IMG/VR virus record: IMGVR_UViG_3300023082_000020
Span: 1 to 41,666 of that record
Source of the DNA: a virus
Reading direction: 5' to 3' (one strand)
DNA length: 41,666 bases
In this document: positions 13,730 to 36,081 of the stretch, one piece after another
Numbering within the stretch: the first letter of the stretch is position 1
Layout: every line of letters starts with the position of its first letter
Notes under the pieces: generated by a model
Told to the model about the DNA's origin: nothing
The model's input: only the letters and a program-made list of their open reading frames with translations
Databases searched by the model: none
Position numbers and translations under genes: made by a program

Positions 13730-13918
13730 ATGAGCGAATGGCAACCGATCGAAACTGCCACACCCAAGGACGACGAAGAGTTGCTGGTTTGGGCTAACGG
13801 GCAGGTGTATGTTGCCAACTTCTGGAACGGCATGAAGCCCAACAAGGAATGGTGGGTTCTAAACGAGTTCACCATTCAGCCGACACACTGGATGCCTCTC
13901 CCATCTCCTCCCCAATGA
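13730..13918 (+). CDS. DUF551-type small protein
   Basis: A 62-residue protein beginning MSEWQPIETATPKDDEELLV and ending THWMPLPSPP. The opening W-P-I..A.P and the closing THWMPLPxPP are the signature ends of DUF551, a family of small phage and prophage proteins with no known function. Length is normal. The stop overlaps the terminase large subunit start as ATGA. Confidence 0.8.
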   Translation: MSEWQPIETATPKDDEELLVWANGQVYVANFWNGMKPNKEWWVLNEFTIQPTHWMPLPSPPQ

Positions 13919-15450
13919 TCCTAACCACCGATCACATAAAGGCTGCAAGGGCTGAGTTGGCTAGGCGTAGCATGGTGGACTACGCCCGCTTCATAGAGGT
14001 TCCCGGCGCTCCTGTTGTCGAGGATGATGAGACTGAGAGCTTCCGGCCTGTCGAGACAGAACTAGCCCAGCATCATCGATTGATCCTTGAGGCCACAGAA
14101 CGTTGCATCAACCGCCACAGAGGGCGGACGATGCTGTTTCTGCCCCCAGGCTCAGCCAAGTCCACATATGCGACGGTGGTAGCTCCTACGCAGGCTATGG
14201 GCCGCATTCCCGGCTTCAAGGTGATTGTAGCGAGCTATGCAACGGACCTCGCCCGCAAGTTCGGCAGGCGGATGCGATCGATCGTCAAGCAACCAGCTTA
14301 TCGGGAGTTGTTCGGCACTGGCCTGAGTGACGATAGCAAAGCAGCGGAGGAATGGGCGCTTACCAACGGCTCGGAGTTCATGGGCGGCGGTATCTTGTCG
14401 GGTATCACGGGCAATCGTGCTGACTTCGTCGCCATTGATGATCCGGTTAAGGGCAGACAAGAGGCTGATTCCGCAGCGACACAGACCAGCACTATCAGTG
14501 CGTATCAGGAGGACATTCTAACCCGCCTGAAGCCCGGCGCCTCCTTGATGCTGACAATGACCCGCTGGAACGAGGCGGATCTAGCAGGGAGCATCCTGCC
14601 TGAAGGCTGGTCTGGTGAGAGCGGGATGATCGAGTGCCGCGATGGCGAGACGTGGGAAATCCTGTGCGTACCGGCCAAGGCCACACGACTAGACGATCCG
14701 CTTGGCCGCAAGCCCGGTGAGTATATCTGGCCTGAGTGGTTCGGCAGGGATCATTGGGCCACATTCGAACGCCTGCCTCGCACGTGGAGCGCACTCTATC
14801 AGCAACAGCCTTCGCCGGACACAGGCGACTATTTCAAGCGTGAGTGGCTAATTCCCGTCGAAACCCAGCACATTCCCCCGCTGGAAACGATGATGGTCTA
14901 TGGAGGATCGGACTATGCGGTTACGGCTGATGGAGGAGACTACACGGTCCATTCAGTGGTGGGTGTGGCTAACGATGGGCGCATGTATCTTCTGGACCTT
15001 TGGCGGGCTCAGGCCAGTTCAGACGTTTGGGTGGATAGTTTCTGCAATTTGGTGAGAAAATGGAAGCCTATTGGCTGGGCGGAGGAAACAGGGCAGATCA
15101 AATCAGGCGTAGGCCCGTTCCTCGTCAAGCGCATGATTGAGAGCGAGAGTTTCGTAGCGCGTGAGCAGTTCCCCACCAGAGGGGACAAGGCAATCCGTGC
15201 ACAGGCTATTCGGGGCAGGATGGCACAACAGGGGCTTCACTACCCACGCGATGCACCTTGGGCTAGCGACTTCATCAGTGAGCTTATGAGCTTCCCGGTC
15301 GGGGTTCACGACGATCAGGTTGACGCGGTTGGATTGTGTGGCCAGCTCATGGATCGAATGTCCTCTGGTAATGCCCCCAAGGAACGTGCTAGGGTAGTTC
15401 CGCGTGGTGCGATTGTGCCGCCTCCGATTGCACAGGGACGTAGGCGTTGA
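13915..15450 (+). CDS. terL: Terminase large subunit
   Basis: A 511-residue packaging motor; start at 13915 by ATGA overlap with the DUF551 gene. ATPase domain: Walker A FLPPGSAKST (75-84), Walker B FVAIDDP with D175-D176, and a coupling stretch near TMTRWNEADLAG. Nuclease domain: GGSDYAVTADGGD (D333), WAEET (E390) and GVHDDQVDAVG (D466, D470). It pumps DNA into the prohead through the portal and cuts the concatemer. The P-loop with Ala before Lys (GSAKST) is seen in P22-like and related terminases. Portal follows immediately. Confidence 0.95.
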   Translation: MILTTDHIKAARAELARRSMVDYARFIEVPGAPVVEDDETESFRPVETELAQHHRLILEATERCINRHRGRTMLFLPPGSAKSTYATVVAPTQAMGRIPGFKVIVASYATDLARKFGRRMRSIVKQPAYRELFGTGLSDDSKAAEEWALTNGSEFMGGGILSGITGNRADFVAIDDPVKGRQEADSAATQTSTISAYQEDILTRLKPGASLMLTMTRWNEADLAGSILPEGWSGESGMIECRDGETWEILCVPAKATRLDDPLGRKPGEYIWPEWFGRDHWATFERLPRTWSALYQQQPSPDTGDYFKREWLIPVETQHIPPLETMMVYGGSDYAVTADGGDYTVHSVVGVANDGRMYLLDLWRAQASSDVWVDSFCNLVRKWKPIGWAEETGQIKSGVGPFLVKRMIESESFVAREQFPTRGDKAIRAQAIRGRMAQQGLHYPRDAPWASDFISELMSFPVGVHDDQVDAVGLCGQLMDRMSSGNAPKERARVVPRGAIVPPPIAQGRRR

Positions 15451-17843
15451 ACGAAGGCGATCAGCATCAAGCCTCGGATGGCCTAATTGACCCCGCCAAG
15501 CCCAAAGACTCGTCTGTCATTCTGGACGCCATCTCGCACGCCGAGAAAGAGTTTCGCGACTACAACGAGATGTGCCGCAGGGTAGACAACATCTACTCCG
15601 CACGCGAGGCTCTGTCATCGTCCGTAACGGGCATGTTCACGGATCAGGACTACGACACGTTCTGGGCGTCGATGGAGATCCTGAAGCCCGCGATCTACGC
15701 CAAGGCGCCACAGGTCATCGCCAAGCCACGTTTCTCCGACGCTACGGCTACAGACAAGGTTGTGGCTGAGCTTATCGAGAGAGTTGTTAACAGCGAGTTC
15801 GAACGCAACGGCATCGACATGCATCTACGTGAGGTGCGTGATGACCTAGCCCTCAACAATCGCGGGGTGCTGCGGGTCACTTACGAAGCGGAAGGGGGTG
15901 AGAAGCGGATTTGCGTCGATCACGTTGACCGTCTGGACTTTCTACACGAACCAGTAAGGTACTGGCCTGAGTTGGGCTGGGAGGCTGTCCGTGCGTGGAT
16001 GACCGAAAAGCAGATGGCCAAGCGGTTCAAGAAGCTTGATCCTGCCGTGATCCGTCGCGCTGGTTTCGTCACCAGACAGGACCGTGAGGATGACGAGCCA
16101 ACGGACAGCGCCAAGGCTCCTGTATGGGAAGTGTGGAGCAAGACGGACAACAAAGTATATTGGGTAACTGAGGGCATCGATGTCATACTCGACGAGGTTG
16201 AGCCCCACCTGAGTCTCCGTGACTTTTTCCCCTGTCCGCGCCCTGCCTACGGGACGACACGCCGCCGCACGCTTATCCCCATTCCAGATTATGTTCGGTA
16301 TGCATCTCACCTAGACCAGATCAACGTCCTAACGTCGCGCATATACACTCTGCTTGATCGGTGTCGGGTTCAGGGGCTTGTCCCTGCCGGTGGGGATATC
16401 TCCGAAGCTATCCAGACTGCGATGGCATCCACCGATGACATGATGCTCATTCCCGTTCCTGGCGCTGCCATGCAGAACGGGGGTGAGTTCGTTCAGTGGC
16501 TCCCGATCGACGTTATCGCCAATACCATCACCGGGCTCATCACAGCACGGACACAGCTATTCTCCGACTTCGATCGTCTGTCTGGCATTTCGGACATCAT
16601 GCGTGGTGAGACTGAGGCACAGGAAACCCTAGGCGCCCAGCGGATCAAGACGCAGTACGGGTCTGTACGGGTCAAGGATAAGACGGAGGAGATCGTTCGT
16701 CTCGCTCGCGACGTGGCTCGGGTCGCAGTAGAGATTATCTGCGACAAGTTCGATAAAGACACTCTGCTTGAAATAAGCCAGATGACCATTCCCTCTAAGC
16801 GGGACGTGGAAAAGGATCTGGCGGGGATCAAGAAAGCGGCCGGCGAGGAGCTTAAGGCTCTGACCGAGAAGGCCAAGGAAGCTGCACAACAGGCTCAACA
16901 GTCGGGGCAACAGGTCGATCCGGCACAGGCTCAGCAGATGTTCCAACAGGGGCAACAGCAGATTGCCGAGAAGTATGCACCTGACCTTCAGCGGCTAGCT
17001 AACACGGTCGTTATCGAAGACGTGATGGACATTATCAAGGATAAGCGGGATCGCGCCTTGGTCGTGGATATCGAGACGGATTCTACCGTGATGGTGGACG
17101 AGATGGCTGAGAAGCAGGCAAGCTCCGAGATGCTTCAGGCGGTTACAGGCGCGTTTTCTGCCTTTCCGCAGTTTGCTGTGATGGGTGAGCAAGGGGTTAA
17201 ATTCTTCGGCGCCGTCGTCAATCATGCCCTCCTGCCATTCACGCGGGGTAATCGTGTCATTCAGTCCCATCTAGACGAGCTTATCGAGAACGCACCCGAG
17301 ATTGCCGAGAAGATGCAGGCACAGCAGGGCGATCAGGGTACGGAGGAGCTAGCTAAGGCACAGCAGACCCTCGCGGACGCTGAAATGGCCAAAGCCCAAG
17401 CGGCTATGAAAGGTGTTGAGGCCAAGGCTCAGCTCGACCAAGCCACTAGCCAGATCAAGATTGCCGAGTTGCAGGGCAAGCAGCAAGACGCGCAGACCAA
17501 GGCTCAACAGGAGAATGACAAGCTCCAGCTTCAGCTAGCCGACGCGACCACCAAGGCGCAGATGGCACAGGAGAAGCAGCAGGCTGATATTGATTATCTG
17601 ACGGCCCAAACAGCCAAGATCCTCAACTCCATCGGGCTTGATGAACGCAAGCAGCAGTTGAGCGAGTATCAGGCGGCTAGCAATGAGCAGGCGCGTGTGG
17701 TAGATCAGCAGCAGCAAGCCGTCTCGTCCGATAGAGACGCGGTTCGGGCTGATCGTAGCGAAGACAGGGCAGACAGGGGGCAGCAGCACTCGGAGGCCAC
17801 GTCGGAGCGTGATTTCGAATTGCGGTCTAAGGAACCTGAGTGA
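15447..17843 (+). CDS. Portal protein, P22-like, with TTG start
   Basis: A 798-residue protein starting at TTG 15447, which overlaps the terminase stop as TTGA. The N-terminal two thirds contain the P22/podovirus portal-type core (FRDYNEMCRRVDNIYSAREA; DYDTFWASMEILKPAIYAK; LSGISDIMRGETEAQETLGA with the following QRIKTQYGS). From about residue 450 on it is coiled coil, very rich in Gln, Ala, Lys and Glu, corresponding to the long portal barrel of P22-type phages. It forms the dodecameric ring for DNA entry. The Gln-rich end is unusually long and repetitive. Confidence 0.85.
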   Translation: MNEGDQHQASDGLIDPAKPKDSSVILDAISHAEKEFRDYNEMCRRVDNIYSAREALSSSVTGMFTDQDYDTFWASMEILKPAIYAKAPQVIAKPRFSDATATDKVVAELIERVVNSEFERNGIDMHLREVRDDLALNNRGVLRVTYEAEGGEKRICVDHVDRLDFLHEPVRYWPELGWEAVRAWMTEKQMAKRFKKLDPAVIRRAGFVTRQDREDDEPTDSAKAPVWEVWSKTDNKVYWVTEGIDVILDEVEPHLSLRDFFPCPRPAYGTTRRRTLIPIPDYVRYASHLDQINVLTSRIYTLLDRCRVQGLVPAGGDISEAIQTAMASTDDMMLIPVPGAAMQNGGEFVQWLPIDVIANTITGLITARTQLFSDFDRLSGISDIMRGETEAQETLGAQRIKTQYGSVRVKDKTEEIVRLARDVARVAVEIICDKFDKDTLLEISQMTIPSKRDVEKDLAGIKKAAGEELKALTEKAKEAAQQAQQSGQQVDPAQAQQMFQQGQQQIAEKYAPDLQRLANTVVIEDVMDIIKDKRDRALVVDIETDSTVMVDEMAEKQASSEMLQAVTGAFSAFPQFAVMGEQGVKFFGAVVNHALLPFTRGNRVIQSHLDELIENAPEIAEKMQAQQGDQGTEELAKAQQTLADAEMAKAQAAMKGVEAKAQLDQATSQIKIAELQGKQQDAQTKAQQENDKLQLQLADATTKAQMAQEKQQADIDYLTAQTAKILNSIGLDERKQQLSEYQAASNEQARVVDQQQQAVSSDRDAVRADRSEDRADRGQQHSEATSERDFELRSKEPE

Positions 17844-18265
17844 TGGCATATCCCGGTGGCGCACCTGTAACGATTGTAGGCGGACAGGCTGGTGGCGCTT
17901 CGGCTGGATCGACAGCTAACCCTTTCGTAACCAGCGGGACTACGGGCGGAACATCGTCTGCCCCTACGTTTCAACGTGAGGTCGGCGCTCCCACGATTGC
18001 CACTCAGCAGGCCGCTACTTCGATTTCCCCAGCAGCCGCAACCCTGATCGTTCCCGCCCGCGCTGGCCGTAGGGCTGTCACGATTTCCAACATCACCGGC
18101 ACGCAGCCTTGCTACCTTGTGGCTTCTGCGATCACGACGGGCACCACGACGGGTTTCTTCGTTGCCGGCACAGTTGGCGCTACGACCTCGATCGGCACGG
18201 CGGCAGCTATCTACGCCACCTCGCCTACCGCAGCACAGACCCTCTCGTACATCGAGACGTTCTAA
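17843..18265 (+). CDS. Small Gly/Ala/Thr-rich structural protein
   Basis: A 140-residue low-complexity protein; ATG 17843 preferred, with AAGGA upstream (GTG 17840 is possible). The first half is Gly/Ser/Thr-rich (VGGQAGGASAGSTANPF); the second half is beta-rich (RAGRRAVTISNITGTQPCYL, TGFFVAGTVGATTSIG) and resembles small phage head or tail decoration proteins. It is coupled to the portal in front and to the tail protein behind. Probably a virion component; the exact place is unknown. Confidence 0.55.
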   Translation: MAYPGGAPVTIVGGQAGGASAGSTANPFVTSGTTGGTSSAPTFQREVGAPTIATQQAATSISPAAATLIVPARAGRRAVTISNITGTQPCYLVASAITTGTTTGFFVAGTVGATTSIGTAAAIYATSPTAAQTLSYIETF

Positions 18266-18726
18266 TGGTAGATAGTGTCTCCTACGCACCGCCGCCCATC
18301 AATCAGCCGCTCTACACGATGGCGACGATACCGCCTGCGGCTGACTATAAGCAGCAGTTCGTGCAAGTGAGTGATGCTCCGGGCGTTGGCGCTGGCCTGA
18401 TGTATTCGGACGGGAATGTCTGGCGTGGCATCTCGTTCTCGGCACAGAAGGTCCGGGTACAGACGGCTGCTGACGGAACCTATACGTGGGTATATCCAAC
18501 TCCTTTTGCGACGGGCAATATCCCTAAGATTTTCGTCGTGGCTGAAGGTGGCGCAGGCGTTACCGATGTCATCAATGCTCAGACGGATGGCCCTCCTACC
18601 GCTACGCAATGCAAGATCCGGGTGACTCGTACTCAGCAATCCGCTGTTGCCCTCCTTGGTCTGACCATCCTTTCCGTTCCCGCTAGCGTTGGTGCGACGT
18701 GGGTTAGCATAGTGGCGCTTCAGTAA
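18265..18726 (+). CDS. Virion protein with fibre-like C-terminal domain
   Basis: A 153-residue protein starting at 18265 by TAATG overlap. After a Pro-rich front comes a beta-rich C-terminal part (VRVQTAADGTYTWVYPTPF, IPKIFVVAEGG, then KIRVTRTQQSAVALLG) of the kind found at the tips of phage fibres and in small receptor-binding domains, where YTWxYPTPF-like strands recur. It ends with VGATWVSIVALQ. Together with the next two genes it forms a host-recognition block between portal and scaffold. Role inferred. Confidence 0.55.
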   Translation: MVDSVSYAPPPINQPLYTMATIPPAADYKQQFVQVSDAPGVGAGLMYSDGNVWRGISFSAQKVRVQTAADGTYTWVYPTPFATGNIPKIFVVAEGGAGVTDVINAQTDGPPTATQCKIRVTRTQQSAVALLGLTILSVPASVGATWVSIVALQ

Positions 18727-18974
18727 TGGCAACAGGCAACGCAAAGCGACTGGTTGAGATGGGCGTACCCCCGCGCCTTGCGGTTGAGATTGCCGGCCAG
18801 ATCACTGCCAGCACCGGCAACAAGCGGCGGTTGGTGGAGTTAGGATCTATGGAAGGGCAGGCGGGCATAATGGCGGCGGCTGTGGTTTCACACACCGTTA
18901 ACCGCACAAAACTGGTTGAGTCTGGCATGATCCCGCGTGTAGCCCGTGAGTTCGCCACGCAAATCGCATCGTAG
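18726..18974 (+). CDS. 82-aa protein made of three LVExG repeats
   Basis: The whole protein consists of three repeats of about 26 residues beginning near residues 7, 33 and 60: KRLVEMGVPPRLAVEIAGQI, then KRRLVELGSMEGQAGIMAAA, then TKLVESGMIPRVAREFATQI. The same three-repeat unit forms the first 81 residues of the next gene product. It may be a free copy of the domain that docks the esterase to the virion, or a partner that assembles with it. Starts by TAATG overlap. The repeat has no function known to me. Confidence 0.7.
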   Translation: MATGNAKRLVEMGVPPRLAVEIAGQITASTGNKRRLVELGSMEGQAGIMAAAVVSHTVNRTKLVESGMIPRVAREFATQIAS

Positions 18975-18982
18975 GAACTGAT

Positions 18983-21496
18983 ATGGCCGCTGTAGCAAAA
19001 CGCTTCGTTGAGATGGGGGTTGTTCCCCGGCTAGCGGTTGAGCTTAGCGCGCAGATTAACTCTGGCGTTGGCAACCGGCGTCGGTTGGTGGAGCTTGGCG
19101 TGCCAGGGATTGCCGCCAAGCTGATCGTTGCGGGCATCACGGCGGGTAGTGTCAGTCGTGGCAAGCTGGTAGAGGCTGGGATTGTCCCCCGCGTTGCTCG
19201 CGAGATTATGGCAGCCATAGGCGGGGTGGCGCCGGTCGTTCCCAACATCCTCCCAACGGCTGCCATAAACGATTTCGCCCTAACGAGTGCCGCTTCCTCA
19301 CCGGGCAACATCGATCTTGGCACGCTAGCATTGCCCGCTGGCGATTGGGTGATGGGTTTGGCGTTATTTATGCCGACAGCCGGCCTAACGATCGACCGTC
19401 CCATTCTTTCGCTGGGAACGGCGTCAGACACCATTACTAGCAGTGCTGGCAATCTGCACATAATGTTCCCAAAGACGAGTTCTACGGGAGTGGGTGTTGC
19501 CGACGCCACTACTAATTCGCTTGTCCTGTCGGGGCGAGATGACGCCAATGTGTGGCTTCCCACCTCGACGGCGACGAACCGGAGAGCTAACACGTATTTT
19601 GGCGGCACCAATGTTCCGTATATCCAAGGCCCCAGCAACGAGCCTCGCAATGTAAAGACATTGGTTGTGGTTCAGAAAATCAACAATGTCATTCAGTTTT
19701 GGGCTGTCACCCCCGGCCGCACGGCGCTGCTCCACGACTATATCGGGTCCACCTTCGGCGCGGTTGCTGCCAAGCAGTTGTTCCTCAACAAGCTGAACCG
19801 CGTCACGACGGCCACCTATCCGAACAGCGACAGCACGACCTATCAAAGGTTCTTTTTCGCGGGCGGCAAGACTCTGACGGCGCTTCAGATGGAGGCCATT
19901 CACGCTGGCGTTGATCCACGTCAGTATATCGCGTTTGACGCCTCGAATGGCGATCGTCTGGTGGCCTTTCAGGGCGCAACCGGAACCGCAGTCCCCGATC
20001 TCGTCGGAAATGGCAGCTACACGATCAACGGCACGTGGACGGCTGCTGCTGGCGGCATCATTCCAACGACCGTCATTGCCGACCAACCCCGCGTGCAGCT
20101 TGAAGGGCGTGGCCAACTGATCCAGCGTACAGGTGTTAGCTCCGACCTGACGTTGCGTGGCACTATGACCGGTGTGGACGATGATGTTTATATCCGCATC
20201 ACAGATACGACAGAAACCACAGTCTACAAAGATTACACGAAAATCGCGGCTTCCTCTGGGGGCTTGTGGTCTGGCACGATCACGGGTGCCCCCGGTGCTG
20301 CGCTTGCTAACTTGCGCATTACGGGTCGTAAAGGGTTGGCCGGTACGCCATTCCCAATCGATAATTTCGTTTTGATTGGTGAATTTATCGATCTTGTAGG
20401 ACAGTCCATCTCGGAACAGATGCGCGTTCCTGGTGATACGCCCAGCACTCGCACAGCATCTGGCCCCAACGCAGCGTTTCTCTCTTTCTTCTCACGTTCG
20501 CGGAGCCTTGGCGGAAGCGTACAGAGCCTTCAGCGGCGTGGGTGGAACAAGTCTGCCACGGGCGGGCCGGGTGAGGTTTACATGGCTGATGCCTTGGCAA
20601 CCGCGCTTAACTGTCCAGTGGGAATCAGCGTCTCGGCTGTTTCCGGTAGCCCGACAAGTGTATGGTCGCCGGGCTCATCGGTGTGGGCTGACTTCGTTGA
20701 CACATGGCAGCGGCAAAAGCCGGGCTACCTCGTTTGGCAGCAAGGCCAAGGCGATCTCGGCACGTTGTACGCCACTTATCAGACGTTCCTTGACGGGTTC
20801 TATGCCAACACGAAGGCAGCGTTTGATGCATCCAGCCCGAACTGGAAACTCATCATTGGGCCGCTCAACTCGTCTGGCGACAACACGGCTGGTGCGGTTG
20901 CATGGCAGAACATCCGCACGGCACAGCGCGATTGGGCAGACGCAAAGTCGCTCGTCGATCCTCGGGTGCTGATGGGCGGCAATCTCACCTTCATGACGCT
21001 GGTGGATACCATCCACGAAACGTCTAGCGTGACGGGCTCGGGTTTCCTTGGTGGTATGCTGGCGCAGGACATCGTATTCCTAGCCACTGGCGGCTTCTCT
21101 GCGGCAGGTCCGAAGGCGGTAAGCTCCGTCTGGGACAACACGGCGAAGACGCTGACGGTCACGTGGGCGCAGAACGGCGGAACGGGTCTGACCACGCGGA
21201 AGGCGGGCGACATCACCGGTTTTACCTACAGCGTCAACGGGTTCGCGAATGCCATCACCGCAGACAGCGCCGTTGTCGGGACGGGGAATACGACGGTCCA
21301 CACGTTCACGACCGCCGCCCCCTCGACCAAGCCAACCCTGCGCTATCAGTACGGGTTCCCAGGCGGCGCCGTCACTCCGCTTACGTCAGACGGGTACACA
21401 CCATCGGTAGACAATCCGCTACTTGATAACCGTGCGCGGCTCGTCACACCTGCGCAGGGCTATCCGGCGATGTTTACCAGCGTGGATCTGACGTGA
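18983..21496 (+). CDS. Tail-associated SGNH esterase (deacetylase-type depolymerase)
   Basis: An 837-residue protein. Residues 6-81 are three LVExG repeats like those of the preceding gene. A beta-rich middle (about 85-465) resembles a lectin or jelly-roll section. From residue 468 an SGNH hydrolase domain is visible: block I DLVGQSIS with nucleophile S475, block III WQQGQGD (D591), and the C-terminal D675-x2-H678 (DTIHE). A C-terminal beta domain follows. SGNH proteins on phage tails remove acetyl groups from surface polysaccharides. The location between portal and scaffold is unusual for such a gene. Confidence 0.75.
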   Translation: MAAVAKRFVEMGVVPRLAVELSAQINSGVGNRRRLVELGVPGIAAKLIVAGITAGSVSRGKLVEAGIVPRVAREIMAAIGGVAPVVPNILPTAAINDFALTSAASSPGNIDLGTLALPAGDWVMGLALFMPTAGLTIDRPILSLGTASDTITSSAGNLHIMFPKTSSTGVGVADATTNSLVLSGRDDANVWLPTSTATNRRANTYFGGTNVPYIQGPSNEPRNVKTLVVVQKINNVIQFWAVTPGRTALLHDYIGSTFGAVAAKQLFLNKLNRVTTATYPNSDSTTYQRFFFAGGKTLTALQMEAIHAGVDPRQYIAFDASNGDRLVAFQGATGTAVPDLVGNGSYTINGTWTAAAGGIIPTTVIADQPRVQLEGRGQLIQRTGVSSDLTLRGTMTGVDDDVYIRITDTTETTVYKDYTKIAASSGGLWSGTITGAPGAALANLRITGRKGLAGTPFPIDNFVLIGEFIDLVGQSISEQMRVPGDTPSTRTASGPNAAFLSFFSRSRSLGGSVQSLQRRGWNKSATGGPGEVYMADALATALNCPVGISVSAVSGSPTSVWSPGSSVWADFVDTWQRQKPGYLVWQQGQGDLGTLYATYQTFLDGFYANTKAAFDASSPNWKLIIGPLNSSGDNTAGAVAWQNIRTAQRDWADAKSLVDPRVLMGGNLTFMTLVDTIHETSSVTGSGFLGGMLAQDIVFLATGGFSAAGPKAVSSVWDNTAKTLTVTWAQNGGTGLTTRKAGDITGFTYSVNGFANAITADSAVVGTGNTTVHTFTTAAPSTKPTLRYQYGFPGGAVTPLTSDGYTPSVDNPLLDNRARLVTPAQGYPAMFTSVDLT

Positions 21497-21569: not shown

Positions 21570-21854
21570 ATGACCAAGCACAAACAGACCAGCACGTCGG
21601 ACGCCATCCAGAAGCTTCAAGAAAAGGATGCTGAGCCCAACAATGAGAGCGCACGGACGAATGAGATCCTTGCCGCTCGCGATGGTGGTTCGGACGTCGA
21701 TCCTGTGAAGCTGTCCCTGGAGGCCAACGATCCTTCCAAGTCGCGTTCGGCCTATACCAGCGAAGACAGCGGGTTCAACGAGGATCTGGACCGTGACGAC
21801 ACGCCTATCCCGACCAAGGACGGCGGCGGTCAGACCAAGGCGGTAAACAAGTAA
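21570..21854 (+). CDS. Small acidic, probably disordered protein
   Basis: A 94-residue protein with AAGGAGAG ahead of the ATG, made largely of Asp, Glu, Ser, Thr, Lys and Asn (MTKHKQTSTSDAIQKLQEKD, and near the end EDLDRDDTPIPTKDGGG). Likely unfolded. It lies just before the scaffold, so it may be a minor capsid or scaffold-associated protein. The 73 bases upstream hold only its ribosome site; I see no convincing promoter. Its stop and the next start overlap as TAATG. Confidence 0.6.
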   Translation: MTKHKQTSTSDAIQKLQEKDAEPNNESARTNEILAARDGGSDVDPVKLSLEANDPSKSRSAYTSEDSGFNEDLDRDDTPIPTKDGGGQTKAVNK

Positions 21855-22189
21855 TGGCGATGGCGCGCGACGAATGGCTTGCCCTGTGGTCGATCCCTCC
21901 AGAAATGGCGGATGATGCATGGGCTGAAAAGCAGGATTTCGACGCGCGCCACATCACCTCGGCAATGGTTATCTCGGATTACATAGATCCGGTGTTGAGC
22001 CACGCTAACGGCAAGATGTACGACAGCAAGTCTGGCCTGTACGCCTCCTACCTCCCCAGCGGCAACCCACAGGGAGAGCGGTACGAGTGTATCGGTGAAA
22101 AGGTAGCTGCGCCGTTCGAACGCAAGCAATCAAGCAGGGAAGAACGTATGCAAGCAGTCAAGCGCACCCTTGATGGGATGGGGATCTAA
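21854..22189 (+). CDS. Conserved phage hypothetical protein, 111 aa
   Basis: Begins MAMARDEWLALWSIPPEMAD. The middle has SHANGKMYDSKSGLYASYLPS and a following GERYECIGEKV, resembling small conserved phage proteins between portal and scaffold that carry an NGKxYDSKS block. Function unknown; its place beside the scaffold suggests a morphogenesis role. TAATG-coupled to the previous gene. Confidence 0.6.
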   Translation: MAMARDEWLALWSIPPEMADDAWAEKQDFDARHITSAMVISDYIDPVLSHANGKMYDSKSGLYASYLPSGNPQGERYECIGEKVAAPFERKQSSREERMQAVKRTLDGMGI

Positions 22190-22190
22190 C

Positions 22191-23336
22191 ATGACCGAAC
22201 TCAGCACGCAGCTTTCCGAGCCGCAGCCTTACGACGAGTCCACGCAACTGGATGAAGGACGGCCTACCACAGAGGGCCAACCCGCGAAGGAACCAGAGGT
22301 TAAGGAAAGCCGACTTGACGCGATCAAGCGCGCTGCTGAAGACGTTGCCCCGAAAGAGGATGTAAAGGCTGATGAACCCAAGGCGGAGAAGTCTCCCGAT
22401 AAGGTTGAGGCTGAACCGGCCAAGGCGGAAACGAAGCCAGAGGAAAAGCCAGCCCCCGAGTTAAAGGCCGAGACGGATAAGCCCAAGCGCTCTCCCATTG
22501 AAGCGCCTGTCAAGTTCATGCCGCGTGCCAAGGAATTGTGGGCTAACACGCCTCACGAAGTTCGCGCCGACATGCAGCGGGTTATCTCCGAAGCTGAGAC
22601 GGAAGCCGCTACCGCACGTGAGAGCGTGAAGGAATATGAGTCCATCCGTCCCTATGCGGAAATGGCTAAGCAATCCGGCACCACGATCGATCAGGCGCTC
22701 AAGAGCTACATCGGTATCGAGCAGACATTCCGCGCCAATCCGTCAGAGGGGTTTAAGACGCTCCTGTCGAATATGCAGATGAACCCGGTTCAGGCAATCG
22801 GTAGCATCTTGCAGGCCTACGGAGTACGCCCTGAGCAGCTTGCCGAGCATATCGCGCAGAACCCGAACGAATACACCTCGCTTGCTCGCCCGCAGCAACA
22901 GCCTCAGCCTCAGAGCGATCAGCGCGTACAGACCCTTGAGCAGCAGGTTCAGGAGATGAAGGCGCAGCTTGTCCACAGAGACGTGGAAGACAAGATCATT
23001 GCACCGTTTGCACGTGAGAATCCGCGTTATCACGAATTGCAAGACACTATTGCAGCATTTCTAAATTCTGATATGGTGCCAAAGAGCCTTAGTCCACATG
23101 ATCGACTAGCGGCAGCGTATGACATGGCGGTTCGCATTAGTCCGGCCAAGAAAAGCGCTCCTGCTACCGAAGAGGACGAAGGCGAGACGACCGCGCTGGC
23201 AAAAGACTTCGGCGGTGACAAATCCGTAAGAGGCGCTCCTGCATCTGGGGTCGATACGACCAACAAGCGCAGGGGTAAACTGTCACGCGGCGATGCTCTA
23301 AACGCGGCAATGGCCGAATTTGGAATCGCCCATTAA
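22191..23336 (+). CDS. Scaffolding protein
   Basis: A 381-residue protein, start set at 22191, two bases after the upstream stop. The first 120 residues are Pro/Glu/Lys-rich and disordered; the middle is helical (ESVKEYESIRPYAEMAKQSG; FKTLLSNMQMNPVQAIGSIL), then a Gln/Pro-rich linker and a coiled coil (VQTLEQQVQEMKAQLVHRDV). The C-terminus is basic. Charged, helical and located directly before the major capsid gene, this is the usual form and place of a scaffold, which guides procapsid assembly and then leaves. Confidence 0.8.
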   Translation: MTELSTQLSEPQPYDESTQLDEGRPTTEGQPAKEPEVKESRLDAIKRAAEDVAPKEDVKADEPKAEKSPDKVEAEPAKAETKPEEKPAPELKAETDKPKRSPIEAPVKFMPRAKELWANTPHEVRADMQRVISEAETEAATARESVKEYESIRPYAEMAKQSGTTIDQALKSYIGIEQTFRANPSEGFKTLLSNMQMNPVQAIGSILQAYGVRPEQLAEHIAQNPNEYTSLARPQQQPQPQSDQRVQTLEQQVQEMKAQLVHRDVEDKIIAPFARENPRYHELQDTIAAFLNSDMVPKSLSPHDRLAAAYDMAVRISPAKKSAPATEEDEGETTALAKDFGGDKSVRGAPASGVDTTNKRRGKLSRGDALNAAMAEFGIAH

Positions 23337-23349
23337 GGGATAAAAGGCG

Positions 23350-24363
23350 ATGCCCGCAGTCGTAACAGACCGCAATTACCGCCAGGTACTGACGACCGCG
23401 ATGGCTTACCGCACTCGCGAAATTCAGGATCTGGTTTTCAACTCCAACCCCGTTTCCGCCCTGCTCCGTGAGCGCGGGAAGTACAAGACGTACACCGGCC
23501 CGGAAATCCGCGTCACGCTCCAGATCGACAAGCTGGGTGGACAGTGGTTCACTGGCTACGATTACCTGGACATCCAGCCCAAGGAAATCCTGAACGACGC
23601 CGTGTTTACCCCGAAGAATCTGTTTGTTGGCTTCTCGCTGACGGGAACGGAGCTTCTGGCGAACGAGGGCCGTACTCGCATCTATAACCTGATGGACGAG
23701 TATATGCAGACCGCTGAATCCTCGATGCAGGATCTGTGGGAAGTGGCACTTCACGGCAACGGTACGGCAGATGCAGGTCGTCAGATGATTGGCTTCGGCG
23801 GGGCTCTCCCAATCGCTGCCACGACGGGTACGTATGGCGGTATCGACCGTGCAACGAACCCGATCTGGCGCACGACCACGTACAGCGTTCCAGGTGGCGA
23901 CTTCGCTGATCTGGGCACGGTATGGGACAGCACCACGGCGCGTCCGATCATCGAACGCATTGCGGCGCTTCGGTCGAAGGGCCGGCGTCACCCGGGCTTG
24001 GCTGTTGCTGACTTGGCTTCCTATCAGGCGGTTTCCGCTTCGATGGTCGCTCATCAGCGCATCACCAAGCAGGGCGGTGCGGCTTCTCTCGGGTTCGATA
24101 CCCTTGAGATCGTCACGCCTGCCGGTCGCGTGGAAATGGTTTGTGCAACGGGTGTCGGTAACGTCATGCCCGCCAACACGATCTACTTCCTCGATCTGGA
24201 CGGTCTGGATCTGTACTATCATCCGAGCCGCAACATGGTTCCGCTGTTTCCGGGTGATGGCGCACAGCCAATCAATCAGGACGCAGTGGCGCAGGGTCTG
24301 GTGTGGAACGGTGAGTTGGTCATGTCCAACCCGCGTTACAGCGCCCGCCTCATCACGGCCTGA
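23350..24363 (+). CDS. Major capsid protein
   Basis: A 337-residue protein directly after the scaffold, with AAGG before the ATG. Features include an N-terminal helix (AMAYRTREIQDLVFNSNPVS), a Gln/Trp-rich strand (VTLQIDKLGGQWFTGYDYLD), MQDLWEVALHGNGT, and a C-terminal block (YFLDLDGLDLYYHPSRNMVP, then GLVWNGELVMSNPR). The position, length and this C-terminal pattern fit HK97-fold coat proteins of podoviruses. It is the building block of the icosahedral head. No protease gene is near, so maturation probably does not need cleavage. Confidence 0.85.
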   Translation: MPAVVTDRNYRQVLTTAMAYRTREIQDLVFNSNPVSALLRERGKYKTYTGPEIRVTLQIDKLGGQWFTGYDYLDIQPKEILNDAVFTPKNLFVGFSLTGTELLANEGRTRIYNLMDEYMQTAESSMQDLWEVALHGNGTADAGRQMIGFGGALPIAATTGTYGGIDRATNPIWRTTTYSVPGGDFADLGTVWDSTTARPIIERIAALRSKGRRHPGLAVADLASYQAVSASMVAHQRITKQGGAASLGFDTLEIVTPAGRVEMVCATGVGNVMPANTIYFLDLDGLDLYYHPSRNMVPLFPGDGAQPINQDAVAQGLVWNGELVMSNPRYSARLITA

Positions 24364-34106: not shown

Positions 34107-34609
34107 CGAGCGGAGTAAAGAACATTCCACGCGACACAGCATCAAACTACAGCCTTCCTCCGGGCACCCTGGTCAACACAGGCGATACGGTACTCCCGTC
34201 TCAGCACAACCCGGCTATGCAGGACATTGCTCAGGCGCTTACACAGTCGCTGGCACGATCTGGCGTCGGAGGTATGCTGGGTGATTTGAACCTTAACGGC
34301 AATGATCTTCTCAATGCCTTCAATGGCGAGTTTGCTGGGGCTGTTACCGTTCAGCAGGACGTGACGGGCGCTAACCTTAACATTCCAAAAGGTAACGTCG
34401 TTAGAGCGGGTGATGACAATTTCGCCCTCCAGTACGTCGGGAACAACCCCCGCATATGGTTGGATCGGGCTAACAACATTTACGTCGAATGGTCGCCAAG
34501 CCTCCAGCGGATCCGGGTGGTGATATTCGGGGCAGTCGTCCTCAACATTCTTCCGGCTAACGGCGGCGTGGTCGGGCTTGGTCCGTATGTTCAGGGGAGC
34601 CCGACGTGA
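34094..34609 (+). CDS. Tail-fibre protein, currently annotated start
   Basis: A 171-residue protein. After MPRDASGVKNI comes PRDTASNYSLPPGTLVNTGD, then PSQHNPAMQDIAQALTQSLA and GGMLGDLNLNGNDLLN, the standard N-terminal block of podovirus tail-fibre proteins that binds the tail. The C-terminal part is beta-rich (NPRIWLDRANNIYVEWS). The ATG at 34094 sits in a hairpin loop without a ribosome site. PRDAS and PRDTAS are a partial tandem duplication 30 bases apart. The natural start was probably the ATG at 33468. It is followed by the tailspike in a GTGA overlap. Confidence 0.7.
   Translation: MPRDASGVKNIPRDTASNYSLPPGTLVNTGDTVLPSQHNPAMQDIAQALTQSLARSGVGGMLGDLNLNGNDLLNAFNGEFAGAVTVQQDVTGANLNIPKGNVVRAGDDNFALQYVGNNPRIWLDRANNIYVEWSPSLQRIRVVIFGAVVLNILPANGGVVGLGPYVQGSPT
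34130..34143. repeat. Right copy of near-direct repeat flanking the HNH gene
   Basis: CGCGACACAGCATC, the partner of 33474-33487. It encodes the R-D-T-A-S of the fibre. If the 656 bp between the two copies were removed, the reading frame would run ATG GCT CGC GAC ACA GCA TCA without a break, giving MARDTASNYSLPPG. Confidence 0.6.
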
Positions 34610-36081
34610 GGAAGTATTTTGATACGGTCATCAATCGAAGCAACGGGGAGCCTGTCAACGGAGCTACGGTGGCTGTCACTACGGAAACGGGCGCGGCTGT
34701 TCAGCTTTATTCCGATAATGGCATCACTCCGATCGCTAACCCTATAAACGCGGTTACGACCAACGGCTACGGCCTTTTCCAGTTTTACGTGGACAGTGGC
34801 GTCTACAATCTTACCTATTCGTTTGGTGGTAAATCCGTATCCGTTTCGTCTGTAGAGATTTACGACGACGCGCAACCCTCTCGTCGGTTCGCTCGCCCTG
34901 TATCCGACAGCACCACAGATTTCCGTGATCGGATCGCTACGGAGAAAACTTCTGGCACTGGATACATCGAAGCACCCGCTGGCAACTATTCTCTAAACCT
35001 GTCGGATGGCCCTCTCGTTCTGGATTTTCCATGTCAGATTCACTTTGGCGCTCAGAACAAGATAACCATAAATAACGCCACGTCCCACGTTTTCCAGATC
35101 AAGCAGGCTATAGACAGCGGCCCTGGCATCCCTGTTATTCTGGACGGCCACGGCGCCCGCATCCAAACGATTGACGGCATGACGAAGACGGCGGGGGCGT
35201 TCGCTATCGTCGGGGGCGTTGGTAGTGAGCCCTACGCTTGGAATACTCGCATACAGAACTTTGAGTTCAAATATATGTATCGCTGGGTAGAGCTTCAGAA
35301 CGCCAAGTTTTTTGACATATCCTCTCTGACAGGCATATCAAACGTTCCGGGCAGGCTTGCGGGAGGCACAGGCGCTATCGCTCTTGGTATTGCTGGCAGA
35401 ACTTCGGAAGGCACAATTCGGGGCATCAAGTTTCAACAGCCCACAGCCGCTACTTGGTGGGACGGATTGGGGCAGACCTTTCCTAGTTTCGGCGTTCGAA
35501 TGCGGTGGTGCGATGCTATCAGATTTGTAGATATGGATCTGATCGCTTCAGGTTCATGCTATCTCATTGATCCGCAGGCAGGACAGGTTGCGGGATTTAT
35601 TGATATTCGTGGTGGAAACATCGATAGCTCCATTCGGGGTTTCGATATTAAACCCGGTGCCGGTGGTATTGTGCAGGATCTAACGGCTGGCGGGGGTGGG
35701 AACGTCACTGTCCATACAGATGCAGGGATCAAACTGGATGGCACAGGTGGCGGCTTGATCCAGCGGGTGGCCTTCTCGGATTATGGGATGAGGCTAAACG
35801 GCATCGGCATTGCCCTTCTGACGGGAGCGGGCACAATCAACGATGTACGGCTGGATTGCGACATCTCCGCTAGCACAAATGAAGCCGTCCTTCTCCAGAA
35901 AGGTACTAACGTTCGCATCAGCAAGGGTCGTTACGGTCCCAGAGGTGACGATGTGGGAAACAATTATGGTCTGAGCGTAAGTTCGGGCGTGACGGGTTAC
36001 TACCAGAACGGCTATGACATAACGGGCAACATCTCCGGGCAGATCGTAAACGCTGCCCCTGGAACGTTCATAGCGAGGTAG
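34606..36081 (+). CDS. Tailspike with beta-helix domain
   Basis: A 491-residue protein with GTG start. The first 75 residues (TVINRSNGEPVNGATVAVTT; TTNGYGLFQFYVDSGVYNLT) form an Ig/transthyretin-like domain. Then RRFARPVSDSTTDFRDRIAT and a long parallel beta-helix region follow, rich in Gly, Asn and Ile (PCQIHFGAQNKITINNATSH; GFIDIRGGNIDSSIRGFDIK; NGIGIALLTGAGTINDVRLD). This is the shape of tailspikes that bind and often degrade surface polysaccharide. Catalytic residues cannot be named from sequence alone. Its neighbour, the fibre, would attach it to the tail. Confidence 0.75.
   Translation: MRKYFDTVINRSNGEPVNGATVAVTTETGAAVQLYSDNGITPIANPINAVTTNGYGLFQFYVDSGVYNLTYSFGGKSVSVSSVEIYDDAQPSRRFARPVSDSTTDFRDRIATEKTSGTGYIEAPAGNYSLNLSDGPLVLDFPCQIHFGAQNKITINNATSHVFQIKQAIDSGPGIPVILDGHGARIQTIDGMTKTAGAFAIVGGVGSEPYAWNTRIQNFEFKYMYRWVELQNAKFFDISSLTGISNVPGRLAGGTGAIALGIAGRTSEGTIRGIKFQQPTAATWWDGLGQTFPSFGVRMRWCDAIRFVDMDLIASGSCYLIDPQAGQVAGFIDIRGGNIDSSIRGFDIKPGAGGIVQDLTAGGGGNVTVHTDAGIKLDGTGGGLIQRVAFSDYGMRLNGIGIALLTGAGTINDVRLDCDISASTNEAVLLQKGTNVRISKGRYGPRGDDVGNNYGLSVSSGVTGYYQNGYDITGNISGQIVNAAPGTFIAR

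Follow-up and report, generated by a model that had tools for sequence, protein, structure and literature searches.

A triple-repeat LVExG module, free and fused to a putative esterase beside a phage portal gene, as a candidate virion anchor

Introduction

Head fibres and decoration proteins of phages diverge fast and can mostly not be named from sequence, their anchors being the least known part. The locus described here raises the question why a phage encodes, in two adjacent genes, the same N-terminal module of three short repeats, once as a protein of its own (P0001) and once as the beginning of a large esterase-type protein (P0002), and what such a module might hold in place. The window, i.e., the whole stretch of 41,666 bases analysed, is a virus record that encodes a large terminase subunit, a portal protein, a virion protein in the position of the scaffold and a major head protein, and the phage is short-tailed. 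The relevant features are:

13849-15450: large terminase subunit (phrog_38)
15447-17843, + strand: portal protein (phrog_12082, 5e-169)
17840-18265, + strand: 141-aa protein, conserved 5' of the fibre slot in several relatives
18265-18726, + strand: 153-aa protein, conserved immediately 5' of the fibre slot in several relatives
18726-18974, + strand: P0001, 82 aa, free form of the triple-repeat protein; repeats at about residues 5-31, 32-58 and 59-80
18983-19225, + strand: triple-repeat module of P0002, residues 1-81 (pLDDT mostly 96-98)
18983-21496, + strand: P0002, 837 aa; module followed by an esterase-type body with Pfam SASA at residues 524-651
21570-21854, + strand: 94-aa protein; directly 3' of the free module in loci L123 and L129, without an intervening esterase
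21854-22189, + strand: conserved 111-aa protein (phrog_21669), 3' of the fibre slot
22170-23336, + strand: scaffold-position protein, virion structural (phrog_25516)
23350-24363, + strand: major head protein (phrog_9953)

Between portal and scaffold the order is thus 141 aa, 153 aa, P0001, P0002, 94 aa and 111 aa. The genes for the 141-, 153- and 82-aa proteins are joined by TAATG stop/start overlaps, the start of P0001 overlapping the stop of the preceding gene, and are therefore probably translated jointly. The 141- and 153-aa proteins, neither of which matched a family, immediately precede the fibre slot in five related loci (L016, L056, L106, L121, L128); the 153-aa protein ends in a beta-rich domain and could be a surface protein of the virion in its own right. 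In almost all relatives the gene for the 111-aa protein is a neighbour of the scaffold gene.

Results

P0001 and residues 1-81 of P0002 are homologous, with 43 identical columns (53%) in an alignment that includes all of P0001, and positions 18726-19231, where the initial annotation had placed a shared three-repeat domain, take in both homologous stretches. Three repeats per module were confirmed, whereas the proposed length of about 26 residues has to be corrected to a period of 27, the best self-alignment offset in P0001 as well as in the P0002 module (73 and 63 BLOSUM62 points, respectively, reached by 0 of 3000 shuffles for each chain). The proposed repeat start (K/R)xLVExG does not apply to the first repeat of the esterase, which reads KRFVEMG. 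With all window sequences left out of its construction, a repeat HMM found all three repeats in P0002 (7e-10, 1.4e-05 and 0.003), and in P0001 the first and third (3.7e-14 and 1.6e-06), with the second appearing as a fragment of 5.8 bits only. Identity between the two modules is 60% at the DNA level and just 32% at third codon positions, so that the pair is an old duplicate under protein-level selection. No further copy of the module occurs elsewhere in the 41,666 bases.

None of the families in Pfam, NCBIfam or PHROGs covers the triple-repeat module, and no head-fibre family (PF11133, head-fibre PHROGs) matched P0001 or P0002. Several candidate relationships were dropped: a match to a minor tail protein of Microbacterium phage Albright (E 0.8), which the family HMMs described below do not detect, matches to a Cronobacter RNA ligase, which are due to chance, a likeness to DUF7409 under the cut-off, and the C-terminal domain of argininosuccinate lyase (PF14698; 15.2 bits vs. 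a cut-off of 27.3, Foldseek E around 1), which we take to be a local helix-turn-helix look-alike.

The AlphaFold2 model of P0001, computed with 12 relatives, consists of three units, each of a short helix, a turn and a long helix (pLDDT 93, pTM 0.81). In the model of full-length P0002, which is reliable in the first 80 residues only, the body being unreliable, the same six helices are found one residue earlier, with pLDDT mostly 96-98; over these helices both models reach a pLDDT of about 95 or more. The predictions thus agree on a common fold, and the lack of fold similarity that would have spoken against a shared domain was not seen. We define the LVExG repeat accordingly as a unit of 27 residues with short helix, turn and long helix and with conserved L, G, A, E and Q/I positions, all of which are found here. 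A predicted viral protein of 84 aa (A0A516LIL0) has the fold of the module (TM-score 0.91), and the PDB yielded neither a significant fold match nor a sequence match to it. A reading of the repeat as the helix-turn-helix stem known from phi29 gp8.5 was therefore not supported; the relation to gp8.5 lies with a separate coil of single-repeat relatives (see below) and not with the repeat.

The body of P0002 is a putative sugar esterase: a SASA/SGNH esterase domain (PF03629) was detected at residues 524-651 with 26.5 bits, just above the curated cut-off of 24.8. A GQS at 473 and a DTIH (DxxH) at 675 were seen by eye, both outside the Pfam stretch and within a body whose model is uncertain. A search for relatives of P0002 found none. 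At L016 the module carries an SGNH esterase of another lineage (phrog_8480), whose family occurs without repeats on proteins of other phages, mostly annotated as tail proteins, so that the repeats appear to be an exchangeable mount. We also looked for this mount on the tail esterases of Gordonia, Mesorhizobium and Rhizobium, where it was not found.

Neither P0001 nor the two-sequence alignment returned anything usable as a direct query against phage, plasmid, viral-contig and genome-contig collections. Relatives surfaced only when 80 loci around relatives of the portal gene were scanned in all frames with the two-sequence profile, and later scans extended the set. The profile search that the initial annotation had proposed thereby led to 57 distinct proteins, nearly all encoded next to a portal gene; with reversed sequences as a control, the family HMMs gave no match under E 0.1. 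Practically all loci of sufficient length show the gene linked to the portal gene: in relatives it lies between portal and the genes for the 111-aa, scaffold and head proteins, and in one sub-lineage (L030, L047, L124, L127, L130-L133) just upstream of the portal. Two members are from the genomes of bacteria, namely Rhizorhapis suberifaciens and Chelativorans multitrophicus, and one, the single-repeat protein XAI95112.1, is from an isolated phage (Microcystis phage Mwe-JY13). We found no description of such a module in open-access papers and take it to be a previously unnamed mount, with one or three repeats, likely of head fibres.

The number of repeats falls into two classes, one in 33 proteins and three in 24, with clearly two in none. 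A C-terminal coil motif (e.g., KVNAIIAALKA) is present in 25 of the 33 single-repeat and in 0 of the 24 triple-repeat proteins. The motif was chosen with the sequences already in view and the proteins share ancestry, so that the Fisher p of 1.6e-9 makes the association look stronger than it is and is descriptive only. Triple-repeat proteins are mostly free. Apart from the L016 esterase, the module is fused to Ig-like domains (L047 and L127), to a large body without assignment (L121, and L132 plus L164) and to a short C-terminal tail (L165), and it behaves as a portable N-terminal unit on unrelated domains in related phages. At L016 the triple-repeat esterase and a single-repeat coil protein are encoded side by side.

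Three loci deserve separate mention. L165 (3749-4069, - strand) encodes a second triple-repeat protein of the L128 record, with the tail LTFSDGSPLQFSDGNYLELAA, and lies among tail-fibre-like and glycosidase-like genes away from the portal. The single-repeat gene of L113 (5980-6090, + strand) ends after 37 residues without a coil, possibly as a broken copy or through a sequence error. An identical stretch of 41 residues is encoded at the L132 and the L164 end of one record of 42,568 bases, which suggests terminal redundancy in a record classed as linear.

What the module is attached to is suggested by the single-repeat relatives. Several of them match the head-fibre families phrog_6994 (8 of 33), phrog_20838 (5) and phrog_14753, the solved crAss001 head fibre gp21 (2.8e-7) and, below the curated cut-off, the phi29 gp8.5 head-fibre family (PF11133); five match phrog_1954. 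A weak likeness to the decoration protein gp45 of phage B2 (E 0.043) concerns the C-terminal half of gp45 and leaves the LVExG region outside the alignment. The trimerising coil that marks the gp8.5/gp21 family is present in single-repeat relatives and absent from P0001 and P0002, while the other mark of that family, a location next to the portal gene within the head module, is found here too. The order of portal gp20 followed by head fibre gp21 in crAss001 likewise corresponds to that of our family. Residues 1-38 of gp21 do not resemble the LVExG repeat, so gp21 and the single-repeat relatives have the coil in common and not the anchor; as the beta-tulip base of gp8.5 is equally unrelated to the repeat, the proposed head location depends on the C-termini of the relatives and on gene order.

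The same data bear on the main rival, in which the module docks to the tail or to the portal collar, P0002 is a second tailspike and the free form fills unused collar sites. It ranks first among the rivals since annotated tail proteins elsewhere carry the L016 esterase family and some members of our family match tail-type PHROGs (tail fibre in three single-repeat relatives, minor tail protein in one). That such esterases are usually tail proteins in other phages, that the gene follows the portal gene and that the second triple-repeat gene of the L128 record stands beside tail-fibre-like genes would all fit a tail or collar site. We nevertheless consider it unlikely, since head-fibre matches predominate among the single-repeat relatives and the closest match in gene order, the portal-gp21 pair of crAss001, ends in a head fibre. 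A separate tailspike-like protein of the window is a mild further argument: a 491-aa protein (34606-36081, + strand) has, by eye, a tailspike-type N-terminus and a beta-helix-like body, and matched no PHROG.

Much less probable still is that the repeats serve folding or assembly, as a unit for multimerisation or as a chaperone, and are not kept as an anchor. A small, helical, N-terminal domain that is common to several cargo proteins and also exists in free form could be such a unit, but against this stand the head-fibre coils to which the LVExG repeat is joined, their type being known from solved virions, and the position of its gene inside the head module.

In a phylogenetic tree the free and fused modules of the window form a clade with the free proteins of L122, L123 and L128 (support 96/94), in which the two window copies are joined at 81/89. 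When four long branches were removed the inner order was not settled, and a grouping of the four free proteins was not rejected (AU p 0.30). The branch of the free copy is short (0.28) compared to that of the fused copy (0.90). In L122, L123 and L128/L129 the corresponding position is occupied by a free 82-aa gene; the next gene is that of the 94-aa protein or its equivalent, and there is no esterase. The free gene is thus the conserved resident and the fused gene the addition. The local tandem duplication suggested by the initial annotation is plausible in view of the clade and the window pair, but the free copy is not the derived one: judging from the sequences, it is plausible that the P0001 gene was duplicated and one copy came to carry the esterase, opposite to the direction first assumed. 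A second tandem pair of free and fused genes was found at L132, which continues across the record ends to the portal gene.

The adjacency of both forms, in the window and again at L132, is also what suggests that the free protein might act specifically on the fused one (as a cap, an adaptor or a competitor) and so set how many esterases a virion carries. As a general role this proposal has lost ground, since most records with a free triple-repeat protein (L122, L123, L019, L028, L057, L124, L130) have no detected fused form, although the records may be incomplete. As the free form is also the better conserved copy, we regard a dedicated role of this kind as improbable; competition in this particular phage could occur as a by-product.

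Discussion

We favour, with a probability of roughly 55%, the reading that the module is a virion anchor, most likely at the capsid surface, which is used either as single repeats trimerised by a coil or as three repeats per chain. The capsid is favoured because the single-repeat relatives match head-fibre families and because of the portal-gp21 gene order of crAss001. In such a scheme the repeat would be a small helix-turn-helix docking unit that holds outward-facing domains on the virion in the position of a head fibre or decoration protein, each repeat making the contact to one docking site and three being needed per fibre. In single-repeat chains a C-terminal coil of the gp21/gp8.5 type would trimerise the protein and bring three docking units to each fibre, whereas in triple-repeat chains the units would be linked covalently and a trimeriser would be unnecessary. 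A triple-repeat chain might then act alone as a minimal decoration (P0001) or with cargo such as an esterase (P0002). The latter could cleave acyl groups from surface polysaccharide during the approach to the cell, for which the capsule-binding capsid fibres of RcGTA offer an analogy (PMC10218006). P0001 and P0002 would compete for the same sites, giving virions with a mixture of both.

More tentatively, the family might be one of decoration proteins with two interchangeable states, the coil-trimerised single repeat and a covalent head-to-tail pseudo-trimer, the latter freeing the C-terminus for monomeric cargo on the head, e.g., an esterase or an Ig domain.

One undescribed anchor unit ties together hypothetical portal-side genes in many environmental phages and in two alphaproteobacterial prophages. 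If the one-or-three rule is true, it represents a natural experiment in which a homotrimer was replaced by a tandem chain; the module could then be a ready-made display tag for such capsids, and a polysaccharide esterase would be placed on the head of a phage instead of its tail.

Several known systems offer partial parallels. The head spike of RcGTA belongs to an alphaproteobacterial particle and is a capsule-binding capsid fibre anchored by its N-terminus, but it differs in its pentameric base protein and ten-residue anchor, and the paper contains no esterase (PMC10218006). In phi29 gp8.5 (PF11133) the C-terminal helical trimer stem is related, below the cut-off, to the coil of the single-repeat relatives, whereas the capsid base is a beta-tulip domain and not made of helical repeats (PMC7602432). 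In Shigella phage B2 the small gp45 forms homotrimers on the capsid at the quasi-sixfold axes (PMC11654681); its C-terminal half has a weak likeness to the single-repeat relatives, but it is without a cargo domain. T4 Hoc, according to a review, is a single monomeric chain at the hexon centre with outward Ig domains and functionally resembles a three-repeat chain with cargo, although its anchor is unrelated and has no repeats of the LVExG type. A further comparison is that with crAss001, which differs in having no triple-repeat or esterase form, and whose coil is missing from the window proteins. Its gp21 is a head-fibre trimer with residues 1-38 seated in a hexon pocket, and gp21 (trimer) and gp29 (dimer) both combine, as is proposed for the module described here, an N-terminal capsid anchor with an exchangeable outward C-terminal domain (PMC10172136). 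The C-terminus of gp29 is Ig-like, as in L047 and L127, and the two fibre types of crAss001 have a counterpart in the two neighbouring fibre-type genes of L016.
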